Assembly (NCBI RefSeq): GCF_033115175.1
Contig: NC_084827.1
Span: forward strand, 122,791,701-122,855,700
Direction of reading: 5' to 3'
Source of the DNA: Lepus europaeus
Lineage: Eukaryota; Chordata; Mammalia; Lagomorpha; Leporidae
DNA length: 64,000 bases
Shown here: positions 15,109 through 64,000 of the stretch, piece after piece
Layout: each line of letters begins with the position of its first letter
How positions within the stretch are numbered: the first letter of the stretch is position 1
Translations under genes and position numbers: made by a program
The notes under the pieces: generated by a model
Databases searched by the model: none
What the model was told of the DNA's origin: nothing
The model's input: only the letters and a program-made list of their open reading frames with translations

Positions 15109-15465
15109 TAATTCCACTCAGCTGAGCTCTTCTCCTCGATGGCAATCAGTACCTGAGCACTAGCCCAGTGGGTATAATATTTGTCTGCTCTGTCCCAAGG
15201 ACCACACAAAGGATCTGTGCAGTCCTCAGTGTAAGCTCAGATTCCCCTGCAATGTCTCTCACCGGGTAGCCAAAGATGTCCAAATTTGTGGCATCTCCCA
15301 TTAAGACTACTCATGTCTCAGCCACACCATGAGTTCTCCCACACACCCTGGTTTGTTTTGTTTTGTTTTTTTCATAGTCCCAGTTCATAAGCTCCACACA
15401 CTCACTAGGTCTTAGTCTCCTGTTATTTCTCCCCACCAGATTCAGGATTTTCTGCAGGCAAAGAT
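15109..15465 (-). mobile_element. Antisense L1 5'UTR block in copy A
   Basis: The reverse complement matches the lagomorph L1 5'UTR seen in sense at 20,580-20,860 and 60,780-60,985. Landmarks in order are GGGGAGAAATAACAGGAGA, GTGTGTGGAGCTTATGAACT, TTTGTGTGGTCCTTGGGA and CAGCTGAGTGGAATTACTTCC. It is therefore an inverted segment, not a new element. The cause could be a twin-priming inversion, a separate insertion, or later rearrangement. Confidence 0.8.
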
Positions 15466-22101: not shown

Positions 22102-22169
22102 AGGAAGGAAACCTCACAGCAAAAGATCACAGGAATCTCAAACCATATATTAGAAACTATCTTTGGCAA

Positions 22170-59081: not shown

Positions 59082-59390
59082 AATGTACCTAGAGTCTAAA
59101 ATAAAACACTGAGATAAAAAACAGGTCTTGGTTTTCAAAGAGCTTGAGAGGATGTAAAATATATATCTTAGAGAAGAACTTTAAAACTTTTCCCTGAAAC
59201 AGGCCTGTACAATCCTATCACTGGCAACTATACTTCTGAAAATATTTCACAAAATCTGCCTGGTTTGAAATATATGGGTTTTATGGGTTGCCTGGGCTCT
59301 GTGCCTAGAAATATTTTCAGAGATCATCTCATGTTTTTATTCCTAGGATCAATAATGTCAGCAGATGTTAAGGTTTGCTAGCCAAGTATA
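59082..59390. other. Anonymous non-coding stretch
   Basis: No recognised element. Confidence 0.4.
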
Positions 59391-59406
59391 GTGATTTCCA
59401 AAAAGA

Positions 59407-59713
59407 AGATGGAGAGTGAGAGAGAGGAGGAGGAAGAGGAAGTGTTTATGATGATGAAGGAAGAGGAGGAGGAGTTGATGATGATGGAGGTGGAGGAAGA
59501 GCTGATGATGATGGAGGAAGAGGTGGAGGAGGAGGAGGTGGAGGAGGAAGAGGAGCTGATGATGATGGAGGAGTTGATGATGGTGAAGGAGGTGGTGGTG
59601 GTGAAGTTGATGATGATGGAGGAGGAGGAGGTGGAGGAGTTGATGATGACGGAGGAGGTGGAAGAAGAGAAAGAGGAGGGGAAGGAGGAAGGAAAAAGAA
59701 AAGGAGGAGAGCC
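59407..59713 (+). repeat. (GGA/GAT/GGT)n trinucleotide repeat block
   Basis: About 300 bp of purine-rich G-G-A, G-A-T and G-G-T triplets in irregular higher-order units such as 'gttgatgatgatggagga'. Because stop codons are rare in such repeats, frames on both strands stay open (Glu/Met-rich on plus; Ser/Pro- and Leu/His-rich on minus). I read it as simple sequence, not a gene. Confidence 0.9.
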
Positions 59714-60094
59714 AGTGATTCCAGCACTGCCCAAGCCAGTGACCCATAGCATGGAATGGATAAAAATGGAAGTTACAAAACAGCACAACTGTTTGAACAA
59801 AACGTTTGGAGGTTTTAGTTGGGAAAGACACCAGCTGTAAACCATATACACCATTTCACAGTCTTCCATAATCATCCTAAAATATATACAAAAATGTCAA
59901 AATGCTTCACTGGTAAATAATGCTATGTTCTGATAATATTGCTTCACATAGCTGGAGAGATTTTGCTTACTAGAAAAAAATTGTTTCTCATGTCTTCAGT
60001 GATTAAAATATATTCTTACAAATTTCTTCAAAAATAATGTTACTTCACAGGAGAGTAAAAATTAAATAATCTTACTTGCACATGCAAAAATAAT
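59714..60094. other. Anonymous non-coding stretch
   Basis: Nothing recognised between the triplet repeat and the old L1. Confidence 0.4.
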
Positions 60095-60274
60095 AATGTA
60101 GACATTAACCTTATACATTTTACCAAAAAATAACTTGAAATTGATCACAGAGCTAAATCTAAAACACAAAACTATACATCTTCTGGAACAGAACCTAGGA
60201 AAAATCCAGGTTCTTTGGATTCAGAGACAGGTTGTCAGATATAACACTAAAAAATCCATGAAGGAGACAGAACC
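60095..60274 (+). mobile_element. Old L1 ORF2 fragment, target of the next element
   Basis: 'tgatcacagagctaaatctaa', 'aaaactatacatcttctgga' and 'aaaaatccatgaaggag' match the ORF2 C-terminal region of old L1s. It is interrupted at about 60,274 by the full L1-type 5' end. Confidence 0.65.
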
Positions 60275-61189
60275 GAGGCGGCAAGATGGCGGAATAGGCA
60301 GGGAGCACACTTAGTCTGGGGGGAAAGAAAGTTTAATATAAGTGGAGATACTGCAGGGTCAAGGAAGAGTAGGGGATGAAACAGCAGAGGAAACTCTTCC
60401 GGAACTAGTGATTCACAGTGGACCTGCGTGGAGAGCATGGGAGCCCAAGTTCGGGACACCAGCGGCAGACTCAACGCACCAGCGCTGGAACGCAAGGTGA
60501 GCCGAACCTCCATAGCCCGAGATACCAGCAGGCAAGCGGAAAGAGGAGGCTAGAGGGAACGAGGCTTGAAACTCCGTGGGGAAAAGTTCACCAGGCTAAC
60601 TAGAAGAGAGAGAAAAAAAATAAAAAAAGTGACTGATACGGACACAAGTTTCTCTCTCTCCACTCACCTCTCAAAGGCGAGCAAGACAGAGCAGGCGCCA
60701 TTTTGAACATACGTCATAAGCAGGGCGACCTCAGGTCTGCACCGGCCCTGAGCCTAGCAGAAAAACCTGACTCTGTGGGGAGGGGTGAAATAACAGGAGA
60801 TTAGCATCTAACTTGGCAACCCAGTGGGAGACTGCAGGAGAATTGGAGCCCACACTGAGGGCAGCAGAGATTCCCTGTGTGGTCCTTGGGAAAGAGCTTC
60901 CGATCTCTGGCTCCTGTGGGTATATCATTTGCCTGCTAACTACCTCCAATTACGTTCAGCTGTGCGGAATTACTTCCCTTTTAAATCAAAAAAAGAAAGA
61001 GAGATTTACCACACCTAACCTGGGAGTGTCATCTTTGACACACCCTCAGCCCCGAGGAACCAAACACAGCTCTCAGTCCACACTCATCTCAAGCCTCTAA
61101 GGCTCCACCGAAAGCAGACAGTCCACTTAATATAGAGCCATAGTGTAACAAGAAAAAACACCACAGTGAAGAAACCAAATATCTCCAAC
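60275..61189 (+). promoter_or_regulatory. Complete L1 5'UTR with YY1-like start
   Basis: It begins GAGGCGGCAAGATGGCGGAA. CAAGATGGCGG at 60,282-60,292 parallels the YY1 site at the very 5' end of other mammalian L1s, where it positions transcription start. It is collinear with copy B's 5'UTR, but additionally keeps about 50 bp at 60,692-60,750 with GCGCCATTTTG (YY1-like) and TACGTCA (CRE-like, 60,710-60,716). An intact internal promoter is plausible; activity is inferred. Confidence 0.75.
60282..60292 (+). promoter_or_regulatory. YY1-like initiator motif CAAGATGGCGG
   Basis: The motif sits about 8 bp from the inferred 5' end, the position and sequence context known for the L1 YY1 site in primates (CCAAGATGGCCGAATAGG). 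Copy B has lost it. Confidence 0.7.
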
Positions 61190-62227
61190 ATGCCAAACAA
61201 CAAACGCAAAAACCAAGCTAACAAGAACAAGGAAGACACTATGACGCCCCCAAATGAAAAAGACACCCCAATTCAAGATTATGAAGATGATGATATCGAA
61301 GAAATGCAAGAAGCGGATCTCAAAAAATTGATAAGAACATTAAGAAGTTCTCAAAAACAAATTCTTGAACTACAGAAATCCTTCATGGACAAGATAGAAA
61401 ATCTCTCTCGTGAAAGTGAAATATTAAGGAGGAATCAAAATGAAATGAAACAACTAGTGGAACAAGAAACTCTGATAGTGACTAGAAATCATAATGAAAT
61501 GAAGAGTTCAATAGATCAAATGACAAACACATTAGAGAGCCTTAAAAACAGAATGGGCGAAGCAGAAGAGAGAATATCAGACTTAGAAGACAGAGAACAG
61601 GAAAGGAAACAGGCAAACCAAAGAAAAGAAGAAGAAATTAGAAATCTAAAAAATATTGTCGGGAATCTACAGGATACTATTAAAAAACCCAACATTCGGG
61701 TTCTAGGAGTTCCTGAAGGCATGGAGAGGGAGAAAGGATTAGAAGGCATTTTCAGTGAGATACTAGCAGAAAATTCCCCAGGTTTGGAGAAGGACAGAGG
61801 CATCTTAGTACAGGAAACTTATAGAACCCCTAATAAACATGACCAAAAGAGATCCTCACCACGACACATTGTAATCAAACTCACCACAGTGAAACACAAA
61901 GAAAAGATCCTAAAAGGTGCAAGAGAGAAACGTCAGATCACTCTTAGAGGATCTCCAATTAGACTCACAGCAGACTTCTCATCAGAAACCCTACAAGCTA
62001 GAAGGGAATGGCGAGACATAGCCCAGGTACTAAGAGAGAAAAACTGCCAGCCCAGAATACTATATCCTGCAAAGCTCTCATTTGTGAATGAAGGTGAAAT
62101 TAAGACTTTTCATAGCAAACAGAAACTGAAAGAATTTGTTGCCACTCATCCTGCCCTGCAAAAGATGCTTAAAGATGTCTTACATACAGAAACACAGAAA
62201 CATGGTCACCAATATGAAAGAAGGTAA
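61190..62227 (+). CDS. Intact L1 ORF1p, 345 aa
   Basis: RNA-binding nucleic-acid chaperone of L1, which trimerises and coats L1 RNA in cytoplasmic RNPs. I chose ATG 61,190 (MPNNKRKN) because the upstream in-frame extension contains only a GTG at 61,166 and copies A and B start at the same ATG. Domains: basic/acidic N-terminus 1-40; coiled coil about 41-165 with heptad-like EILRRNQNEMKQL and ERISDLEDRE; RRM about 166-255, starting NIRVLGVPEGMERE; C-terminal domain about 256-330 with RGSPIRLTADFSSETLQARR and NCQPRILYPAKLSF. Length and motifs fit mammalian ORF1p (about 340-370 aa). It has Glu at codon 185, where copies A and B have a stop. It is the only undamaged large frame in the window. Confidence 0.92.
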   Translation: MPNNKRKNQANKNKEDTMTPPNEKDTPIQDYEDDDIEEMQEADLKKLIRTLRSSQKQILELQKSFMDKIENLSRESEILRRNQNEMKQLVEQETLIVTRNHNEMKSSIDQMTNTLESLKNRMGEAEERISDLEDREQERKQANQRKEEEIRNLKNIVGNLQDTIKKPNIRVLGVPEGMEREKGLEGIFSEILAENSPGLEKDRGILVQETYRTPNKHDQKRSSPRHIVIKLTTVKHKEKILKGAREKRQITLRGSPIRLTADFSSETLQARREWRDIAQVLREKNCQPRILYPAKLSFVNEGEIKTFHSKQKLKEFVATHPALQKMLKDVLHTETQKHGHQYERR

Positions 62228-62261
62228 AGGAAGGAAACCTCACAGCAAAAGATCACAGGAA

Positions 62262-64000
62262 GCTCAATTTCTCTTTGACATAGAATTAAACTCTGATGCT
62301 CTGTTAAAGCAATGTGTTAAAGTAATCTATTATGTTCTCTTGATGTCTGTTAAATTCTAATTGTTCAAAAACAGCTGAATTTTTATTAAGAGCTATGGGT
62401 TATTTAAATATGTGCTTTTTTCAAAAATTTGAATAATCACCGTGTAACAATGATCAAATTTGGTCTATGTTATGTCATGATTTTAAGAAATCTTATTTCA
62501 ACCAGATATTTTGGATTTTGAGCCTTCTTGGCATTCTTGACAGGCATTCAAAAAATCAAAGTTTCAAACAATCTGGTCTCTAAAATTTCCAGTAAATCCT
62601 GGACTTTGGTTTTTCCAGTTTGGGCCCAACTGAAAAAATCGAAGGACCTACGTCTCTCATCTTATAGAGACACCAACTAATCAGTCTATTTGGAGTATAT
62701 TAGAAGTACTGTCAAGATGTGATGTGGTACCAGACTTTAAGTTTCTATAATGGAAAATGCTATTAATACAAATGTTTGAGAATTAAAAAGTCTAATGATC
62801 TTGTGTTACTAGACATGATAGTTATCTTAATGAGAAAGCCCCAGAGGCTTAAAGGGTTAAATACTTGTAAAATCCTACAGGTGCTTTCAAAAATACTGTG
62901 AAGTAAGCAAGTGCCTCTTGTTGGTTGATGAGTTTATAATTTTAAACATGGCAACTTAAAGTCTTTTGTCATCCACAGTTATATATGATGTGCTGCTCAT
63001 AAAACTAAAGCGTTGTTGGTTCTGTGTTTAGCTGTCCTCCTATAGGTTCCTATGGACTTTTTCCAGCCACTTTTATTGTATTCAGTACTTTGGGATGGCT
63101 CTGTAAACAGATGAAGCCAATAATGTATTAACAGTACCAACTGAGAGAAAGTATGGTTAACTGAGGTTACTAAAAAGAAAAAGCAATTCAAATCAATTGG
63201 CAATCTACAAAAAGAGTTAAAGATTTTAAAAACTATTATTAAAATTGCTATATTGGTCTATTATGCTATGTGATATGTGTGTACATATTGTATGTCCACA
63301 TGGGGAAATTTTATTATTAAGAGTTTTATTTTAAATGGCTTATAGATAAGATTGTCCATAAATTTAAGCTGCTAAAATCAATCAAAGATACATTTTAATT
63401 TGTGGGACCTGAATCTGTGTATCATATGTTTTAGACTTGTTGGTAGAAAGAAACTAAAAACATTTTAGATGGTTGTGCTTAAGTTTACTGGCTAAACAAA
63501 CTACACCATGTTAGATATTTAAGAGGTGTTTTCAAATACATGATTCTTAAAATTTATAGAAGGCATTGGAACTTCTGGTAAATGTTTTCTTAAGTTGTTA
63601 TCTAATGGTTGAAACGGTTTGCTAAGTATTCATGTGATATTGCTATTGTCAGCAAGCGATCTAGGACTTGCTCCCTCATTTCTCTATTCTAAGCCCAACT
63701 TGTTCTTTCATTTCTCTATTCTCTTCAAGGTAGGAAACTAATTCTATTACGAAGGAATCTGTAGGATGCACAATTTAATCTTTAGACCTTATAAAAGAGA
63801 TGGCTAACATTTTTCTGCAATAGCATAGCCAAAATAAGAACTTAAATAATAATCTCATAGCTAGATTCACTTTGCCATCAGCGAAGTATACAGTAAGTAG
63901 AAAAAACCTCCCTTTCAGACCAAAGGGAAAGAAAGTTTTAAAGTGAGAATATAATTTTCCTCATGGGCATTGTCTACCTTAGAAAAACTACTACAGAACA
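62262..64000 (+). other. Unidentified sequence downstream of ORF1
   Basis: At least 1,739 bp, AT-rich, with no open frame above about 70 codons and no CSINE, ORF2 motif (FADD, SDH, Cys-rich) or L1 polypurine tract that I can see. A short internal repeat (tttctctattct) occurs twice at about 63,679-63,725. It could be the 3' part of an ORF1-only element, another repeat family, or host flank reached by deletion. Confidence 0.5.

Follow-up and report, generated by a model that had tools for sequence, protein, structure and literature searches.

An abundant half-L1 family of Lepus europaeus with an unrelated segment in place of ORF2

In the window considered here, a stretch of 64,000 nucleotides from Lepus europaeus (NC_084827.1, positions 122,791,701 to 122,855,700), an L1-type 5'UTR and an intact ORF1 run into sequence that is not ORF2. 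The question raised by this locus is whether it is an L1 disrupted by a local rearrangement or a member of a family of ORF1-only elements. We consider it probable that the locus holds a copy of a non-autonomous half-L1 (HAL1-type) family that is large and was recently active, and whose members would make their own ORF1p and obtain ORF2p in trans.

The element and its copies

The features of the element are the following.

60,249-60,265, + strand: 5' target-site duplication AAAAAATCCATGAAGGA, a 17-bp exact match to the second copy
60,266 to about 65,379, + strand: whole retrotransposon, 5.1 kb; the window holds 60,266-64,000 and the remainder was read from L009
60,266-61,189, + strand: L1-type 5'UTR, common to copies c1 and c44
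61,190-62,227, + strand: ORF1, intact, 345 aa (345 codons plus stop)
62,228-62,267, + strand: L1 inter-ORF spacer, 39 of 40 bases equal to L1 copy B (22,102-22,141)
62,268-64,929 (window part 62,268-64,000), + strand: segment X, 2,662 bp of non-L1 sequence in the place of ORF2
From 64,930, beyond the window, + strand: last ~440 bp of the L1 3'UTR, by match to L1
Up to about 65,379, beyond the window, + strand: poly(A), read from L009
About 65,380-65,396, outside the window: second target-site duplication (L009/L016 coordinates, same genome)

The 5'UTR is partly alignable to that of L1 copy B (70%) and, by analogy with L1, may serve as the promoter. Both Pfam domains of L1 ORF1 are present in ORF1, and this homology points to an L1-derived frame that would encode ORF1p, as in HAL1. 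The sequence-only reading had recognized the intact ORF1, which was confirmed, but had set the start of the element at 60,275, whereas the 5' end is at 60,266, just after the first duplication. It had also placed the end of the L1 about 30 bp past the ORF1 stop, at 62,262; the early end stands, but similarity to copy B continues to 62,267, 40 bp past the stop. That the downstream sequence is neither ORF2 nor L1 3'UTR holds for 62,268-64,000, but the L1 3'UTR does follow outside the window, and the proposed search past 64,000 recovered it together with the poly(A) and the second duplication.

In the window's own genome the exact junction was matched 5,466 times, about nine times as often as the corresponding junction pattern of ordinary L1 (606), and the X-end 34-mer 8,522 times; the reversed-pattern control for the junction and the control for the X-end 34-mer both gave 0. 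Dispersed copies with the exact junction, named beforehand as the test of an element, were thus found. One search returned 4 junction copies, an undercount, because it passes over frequent words and evaluates a small number of candidates. All 19 further loci read, a subset of 39 further matches, have X, the L1 3'UTR and either a complete ORF1 or the 3' end of ORF1, at 94-98.9%. When 118 ORF1s were scored with rabbit ORF1 and 23 of them (the three top-scoring and 20 picked by hand down the list) were followed downstream, 18 led to X and 5 to ORF2. An L1 with an unrelated 2.66-kb segment replacing ORF2 has founded a lineage now at thousands of sites. Most young copies are 0.3-0.95% from the nearest sampled relative, in a sample skewed to close relatives of our own copy; L091-L093 are in addition biased towards ORF1s in a good state of preservation. 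The family is young and very large, and its activity is recent.

Evolution of ORF1

In a tree of 53 ORF1s with more than 1,000 bp matched, a set also used for the site analyses, the 21 X-bearing ORF1s form one group inside L1 among 32 ORF2-bearing ORF1s (base support 0.631), and the X family apparently has an independent origin within the lagomorph L1s. This set did not include c10 or copy A, nor ten ORF1s that were too short (L050, L059, L060, L061, L064, L007, L026, L032, L039 and L043). Among 37 of 41 ORF1s, leaving out L007, L026, L032 and L039, the change C243G is seen in the own copy, in c1 and in c44, and none of 34 L1s has it; D204G and H211Y occur in the same three copies and are nearly absent from L1s. 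The old copies L054 and N89 lack D204G and H211Y. The ORF1 motifs KGAREK / KDRGILVQE were found in 0 among the 120 relatives listed. Many young copies retain an open ORF1. Of the 15 loci with a complete ORF1, 8 have it intact; a frameshift is present in 6 of 18 young ORF1s.

The ORF1 changes fixed in the X family are mostly silent (9 nonsynonymous to 19 silent, 9N:19S) whereas post-insertion changes are not (34N:14S, p = 0.0016), and because of this difference the comparison suggests that ORF1 has been under selection after the loss of ORF2. The silent bias has the same direction in 8 of 8 site definitions (p 0.0016-0.054), counting only sites with at least 12 young and 20 L1 letters. Changes on the stem of the X family are 10N:14S; part of the bias is therefore as old as the founding or older. 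At 9 of 28 sites the old copies are in conflict, L054 and N89 having the derived state and c44 not, and therefore recombination or conversion with L1 ORF1 probably occurred. Such recombination could import silent changes, which is the main caveat on the selection signal.

It is fairly unlikely, in our judgement, that ORF1 is a passenger in a half-L1 family that receives both ORF1p and ORF2p in trans, with frames intact through youth and a silent bias imported by recombination. This would agree with the conflicting site patterns of the old copies, with the many derived ORF1 states shared by some of the 32 L1s, and with a 5'UTR that differs more between c44 and the own copy or c1 (10-11%) than ORF1 does (6%), a pattern that resembles an exchange of 5' ends. 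A cruder codon-position test on 15 young copies, with both basal copies agreeing, is also on its side (8 changes at positions 1+2 and 13 at position 3 against 32 and 27, p = 0.31; strict counts 5 and 5). However, the bias stays in the strict set, where the derived state is present in at most 1 of 32 L1s (3N:9S, p = 0.006 against post-insertion changes), and the divergences of ORF1 and X climb together, from 2.8% and 2.3% between the own copy and c1 to 5.8% and 5.5% between the own copy and c44.

Segment X and the manner of spread

Segment X is present in the family copies compared. Its window part, 62,268-64,000, has only weak, chance-level matches elsewhere in the window, where five L1 3' ends are present, and X does not match the L1s of the window and flanks. 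An ordinary L1 3'UTR is ruled out, the L1 match beginning only at 64,930. The longest open frame downstream of ORF1 in the whole element, read in L009, is of 113 aa and is open in 17 of 24 copies, comparison frames being few. It appears Gag-like by eye only, with 0 Pfam matches, 0 related proteins, one chance match in PDB and no relative by tblastn in phages. A coding gene was rejected on these grounds, X having 0 Pfam matches in the three frames scanned, and so was a known RNA: Rfam gave no match at gathering in the window part of the element and, at E up to 1 over the whole element, one sub-threshold match located in the 5'UTR and none in X. Neither X nor the junction was found in phages, plasmids, viral or genome contigs, collections that are not expected to contain lagomorph DNA, and no ORF1 relatives were confirmed in viral contigs. 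The donor locus of X was not found by DNA search, which gives family copies first.

A further reading, which seems to us quite improbable, is that the success of the chimera is driven by X through an RNA function of its own (export, packaging or stability), X being of host or retroviral origin and ORF1 secondary. Relative to post-insertion changes, fixed changes are scarcer in X (24:179) than at third positions of ORF1 (13:27; p = 0.0027, in 15 young copies), and the 3' half of X is retained in 4 of 4 short forms read, which were chosen by having the X-end pattern. The difference nevertheless vanishes when L1-shared sites are removed (p = 0.56), and constraint on X was rejected on this account; amplified classes without parts of the 5' half exist (for example, a spacing of 2,085-2,087 bp in 7 of 36 pairs), and the negative Pfam, protein and Rfam searches speak against it.

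Target duplications were sought in 14 copies only and found in 12, namely the own copy, c10, c44 and 9 of 10 others (L067 read by eye; that of L058 is partly poly(A)); none was found for c1. The 17 bp of the own copy exceed chance between 60-bp pairs (at most 8 in 95%, maximum 12, in at most 300 draws). The sequence GCAAGATGG lies within about 10 bases after the target duplication in 9 of 10 further copies, and L066 is without the standard 5' end. The half-L1 is multi-copy and dispersed with a shared junction, and in most copies checked the hallmarks of target-primed reverse transcription are present.

The high number of near-identical copies could suggest that they arose by segmental or satellite-like duplication instead of retrotransposition, but the probability of this mode is negligible and it was rejected: the main similarity of the own copy, c1, c10 and c44 ends at the element boundaries and the flanks differ, 12 of 14 copies have their own target duplication adjoining the poly(A), 5'-truncated copies occur (c10, L059, L060, L061, L064), and the junction counts point the same way. 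A local deletion or unequal recombination fusing the 5' half of an L1 to unrelated flank, the rival named in the sequence-only reading, could give the same picture at a single locus, but it is virtually excluded because the same junction is matched at thousands of dispersed sites, with target duplications and differing flanks; the HAL1-like, ORF1-only family with an intact frame which that reading proposed is supported instead.

Proposed mechanism and comparison with known systems

The founding most likely took place in genomic DNA, where transcription from a 5' L1 fragment would have crossed 2.66 kb of flanking sequence and entered a 5'-truncated L1 of about 440 bp lying downstream, a combination that could be transcribed as one chimeric unit. 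Transcripts of present copies would begin at the promoter in the L1 5'UTR and terminate at the signal of the L1 3'UTR. The half-L1 would make its own ORF1p, which would coat its own RNA, while ORF2p, with its endonuclease and reverse transcriptase, would come in trans from full-length L1s, as the target duplications, the poly(A) and the ORF2 frames suggest; it would be captured mainly via the poly(A)/3' end of the half-L1 RNA. Candidate helpers exist: of 150 scored, 3 have an ORF2 frame open over 1,290-1,300 aa. Since ORF1p would act mainly on its own messenger, selection may retain ORF1 without ORF2. We put forward only tentatively, and with somewhat less than even confidence, that the family is a hyperparasite and the chief user of the L1 machinery here, outnumbering the related full-length L1s about ninefold at the ORF1 boundary, its ORF1p being a cis chaperone selected for that alone and its ORF2p borrowed.

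The cis action of ORF1p, and the retention of ORF1 without ORF2, are hard to test on old HAL1 fossils. This young family offers numerous intact copies, a well-defined founding junction and deletion forms that were amplified in turn, with autonomous relatives present alongside it in one genome, and it permits tests of cis preference by reporter assay and by sequence evolution. It is an L1 parasite at very high copy numbers, and counts of intact ORF1 in such genomes do not gauge autonomous L1. If the hyperparasite reading is true, the family would show, as a natural case, that ORF1p can give a heritable advantage to the encoding RNA even when ORF2 is missing.

HAL1, or half-L1, elements are reportedly treated by Smit in 1999 and by Bao and Jurka in 2010. 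In passages of three papers they are L1-derived, with ORF1 and no ORF2, with poly(A) and target duplications, and presumed to use L1 ORF2p (PMC5753468, PMC5322556, PMC4859970), and one of these passages gives them several independent origins in mammals (PMC5753468). The hare element shares the L1-derived ORF1 frame, the absence of ORF2, the poly(A), the target duplications and the dispersed family; compared with HAL1 as described, it differs in its lagomorph host, in its apparently independent origin and, as it appears, in the 2.66-kb non-L1 segment replacing ORF2. For human HAL1 nearly 2,100 copies are quoted (PMC5322556), against the 5,466 exact junction matches here. For guinea pig and marmoset, a table of PMC3183009 lists young HAL1 families such as HAL1-1H_Cpo and HAL1-1C_Cja, and its rabbit and pika rows have no HAL1 among families less than 1% divergent; by table entry, rather than internal structure, recent amplification is common to both and the hosts differ.

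Autonomous lagomorph L1s (copies A and B and 36 further loci) share with the half-L1 the 5'UTR, ORF1, the spacer and the last ~440 bp of the 3'UTR, but they have ORF2, whose start is present in 36 of the 36 loci, and about one ninth of the junction-pattern matches. The half-L1 lacks the ORF2 endonuclease and reverse transcriptase, and is not an autonomous L1. SVA-type composites are mobilised by L1 and encode no protein; the half-L1 is likewise a composite and presumably mobilised by L1, but it keeps ORF1. 3'-truncated L1s without ORF2 can be inserted by the L1 machinery as tailless copies, according to a passage of PMC5322556, whereas the half-L1 ends in an L1 3'UTR with poly(A) and exists as a family. 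HAL1s are already known, and the present family is a very abundant lagomorph variant carrying a foreign segment.

Structure of the element

The element studied here carries an L1-type 5' end and ORF1, and in the place of ORF2 a non-L1 segment that we call X. The features at its 5' side are:

60,249-60,265, ahead of the 5' end: target duplication, AAAAAATCCATGAAGGA, repeated exactly (17 bases) after the poly(A)
first part of the element, ahead of ORF1: L1-type 5'UTR
61,190-62,227: ORF1, intact, 345 codons, open as the sequence-only reading had proposed

The ORF1 protein contains both Pfam L1 ORF1 domains and matched solved LINE-1 ORF1p structures. It has 1,639 relatives, the best among the 120 listed being L1 ORF1 of Oryctolagus cuniculus (90-92% identity). 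Likeness to copy B, an ORF2-type L1 of the window, stops at 62,267, which is 40 bases 3' of the ORF1 stop codon, and the following 1.7 kb has no match above chance level in the rest of the window despite the five L1 3' ends present there. Genome sequence read beyond 64,000 placed the 3' boundary of X at 64,929, and the stretch from 64,930 to about 65,385 consists of L1 3'UTR and tail and shares 75-91% identity with other L1 3' ends of the window and its flanks. The 3'UTR, the poly(A) and the 17-base repeat past the window therefore define an element of about 5.1 kb, organized as 5'UTR, ORF1, spacer, X (2,662 bp), 3'UTR and poly(A), which is inserted in the L1 manner. The earlier reading had put its start (60,275) and junction (62,262) a few bases off; it had been cut by the window edge on the 3' side, where the element actually ends in L1 sequence.

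No long open frame was found in X (the longest has 113 aa and no protein relative), nor any Pfam match in three frames or Rfam family at the gathering threshold. By eye only, part of X reminded us of a retroviral Gag zinc knuckle. Inside X, 62,406-62,511 is weakly and imperfectly self-complementary (60% over 106 bases). Just ahead of the insertion (59,382-59,840) there is a purine-rich GGA/GAT-repeat tract with long repetitive open frames. Elsewhere in the window copy A, another ORF2-type L1, is rearranged, carrying an inverted piece of L1 5'UTR past its ORF1 part (15,187-15,459, minus-strand matches).

Dispersed copies and size classes

The assembly to which the window belongs (2.93 Gb, 649 contigs; the window lies on contig C1) was searched for further copies. 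A 201-base junction query gave four full matches, the remaining 36 of the 40 scored matching the L1 part only and having ORF2 in every case (36/36); this is an undercount of the family. With X as query, the 40 scored out of 2,264 candidates showed 96-100% identity over at least 1,499 bases, and all 19 further loci that were read contained ORF1 (whole or 3' end), X and the 3'UTR at 94-98.9%. The exact 34-base junction pattern occurs 5,466 times genome-wide (2,809 + 2,657) and its reversed-pattern control never, which bears out the suggestion that a true element should have dispersed copies sharing one junction. A 34-base pattern for the end of X was found 8,522 times (4,374 + 4,148; control 0), and the equivalent ORF1/ORF2 pattern of ordinary L1s, with three degenerate positions, 606 times (325 + 281; control 0). 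The apparent ratio of about nine between half-L1 and ordinary L1 junctions is indicative only, since the site differs among L1 subfamilies and copying has to extend further to reach it in an L1. P0014, the rabbit ORF1 of the largest cluster (82 members), had a best match of 92% in this genome, which points to a lagomorph different from the European rabbit, probably a hare. Among 118 scored ORF1 matches, 23 were followed downstream and led to X in 18 and to ORF2 in five.

The copies are separate insertions. Between the studied element and copies c1, c10 and c44 the main similarity ends at the element boundaries, and target duplications of 17 bases (studied element), 22 (c10) and 10 exact (c44) were identified, while none was found for c1. 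Further copies have one in 9 of 10 cases, 12-18 bases long (that of L067 judged by eye from the element ends, that of L058 partly poly(A)); L066 is without the standard 5' end. Overall, 12 of the 14 copies examined bear a duplication. In up to 300 draws of 60-base pairs, 95% of the chance matches did not exceed 8 bases and the longest had 12. By length alone, then, the matches of c44 and of L063 (12) could arise by chance, although both sit at the expected place. L068 has inserted into an older member of the family. The 5'-truncated L061 and L064, with differing flanks, start at adjacent bases (62,217 and 62,218), and c10, L059 and L060 start nearby, a clustering that might reflect chance or a preferred reverse-transcription stop.

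On contig C1, pairing the first listed junctions (73) with the first listed X ends (100) gave 36 pairs and left 37 junctions and 64 ends unpaired. The spacing was full (2,622-2,642) in 19 pairs, 2,085-2,087 in seven, 1,791-1,796 in three, 1,648 in two and different in five. Four short forms (L114-L117) lack differing parts of 62,330-63,645 and keep the rest. From these recurring spacings and short forms it follows that deletion forms of X have multiplied and that its 5' half is at least partly dispensable; they are size classes, that is, subfamilies inside the half-L1. Relative to post-insertion changes, fixed changes were fewer in X than at third positions of ORF1 (24:179 against 13:27, p = 0.0027), a difference that disappears once L1-shared sites are taken out (p = 0.56).

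Origin, age and probable selection on ORF1

A tree of 53 ORF1s places the 21 X-bearing copies in one group within 32 ORF2-bearing L1s (base support only 0.631), where L054, c44, N89 and L052 branch off in that ladder-like order ahead of the young copies; a smaller tree joined the studied element, c1 and c44 with support 0.978. As the copies have junction and X in common, the family is in any case likely to derive from a single founding event. Over 62,200-65,250, nearest-neighbour divergence was 0.26-0.95% in 16 of 24 copies, 1.1-2.9% in c1, c10, L051, L052 and L053, and 3.1-5.2% in N89, L054 and c44. At a mammalian substitution rate of about 2.2e-9 per site and year, the youngest copies would date back less than about 1 million years and the oldest in the sample some 10-20 million. 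Among L049-L068, 15 loci have a complete ORF1, which is intact in 8 of them, and L066 is likewise open.

Selection was assessed by comparing site states between groups, with no ancestor reconstructed. Changes counted as within-family where young X copies share a state other than the L1 majority and at least one old X copy keeps the L1 state, and as post-insertion where private to one young copy. Within the family there were 9 replacement and 19 silent changes, against 34 replacement (one a stop) and 14 silent after insertion (odds ratio 0.195, p = 0.0016); neutrality would give 75% replacement or stop, to which the post-insertion counts come close. Restriction to derived states in at most 1 of the 32 L1s gave 3:9 (p = 0.006 against private changes), and eight site definitions all pointed in the same direction (p 0.0016-0.054). 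A three-copy count had given 2 replacement and 7 silent changes. Three observations weaken this reading. A codon-position version in which both basal copies agree gave 8:13 versus 32:27 (p = 0.31). The family stem has 10 replacement and 14 silent changes, and the silent bias is therefore not limited to the later phase. The old copies carry conflicting states at many sites, an indication of some recombination or conversion. Taken together, we regard these counts as good, though not conclusive, evidence that ORF1 was required by the copying lineage after the loss of ORF2.

Proposed mechanism and relation to known half-L1s

The family is very numerous and was recently active, its copies bear L1-style insertion marks and one founding junction, and ORF1 is open in many of the young ones. 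Transcription would use the L1 promoter and the L1 terminator, ORF1p would act in cis on the RNA that encodes it, and ORF2p would be borrowed from full-length L1s; candidate helpers, with ORF2 frames of 1,290-1,300 aa, were 3 of 150 scored. At the founding, transcription of a 5' L1 fragment probably ran across adjoining DNA and on into a short L1 end downstream, giving a chimera. ORF2-bearing L1 pieces are repeated at C8:82.924-82.962 Mb and at C635:0.223-0.251 Mb, evenly spaced by about 8.86 and 9.6 kb, which suggests tandem arrays containing an L1.

HAL1s are described as ORF1p-only L1 derivatives with several origins in mammals (PMC5753468), bearing poly(A) tails and target duplications, with nearly 2,100 human copies (PMC5322556). 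Young families are tabulated for guinea pig and marmoset, and none is entered there for rabbit or pika (PMC3183009). Among the papers listed by full-text searches on half-L1, HAL1 in rabbit, rabbit L1, hare or Lepus, guinea pig and purifying selection, none has a title or abstract opening that describes a lagomorph half-L1. The family presented here has the HAL1 features that could be tested, plus the foreign segment X, and we class it as of the HAL1 kind with an added foreign segment.
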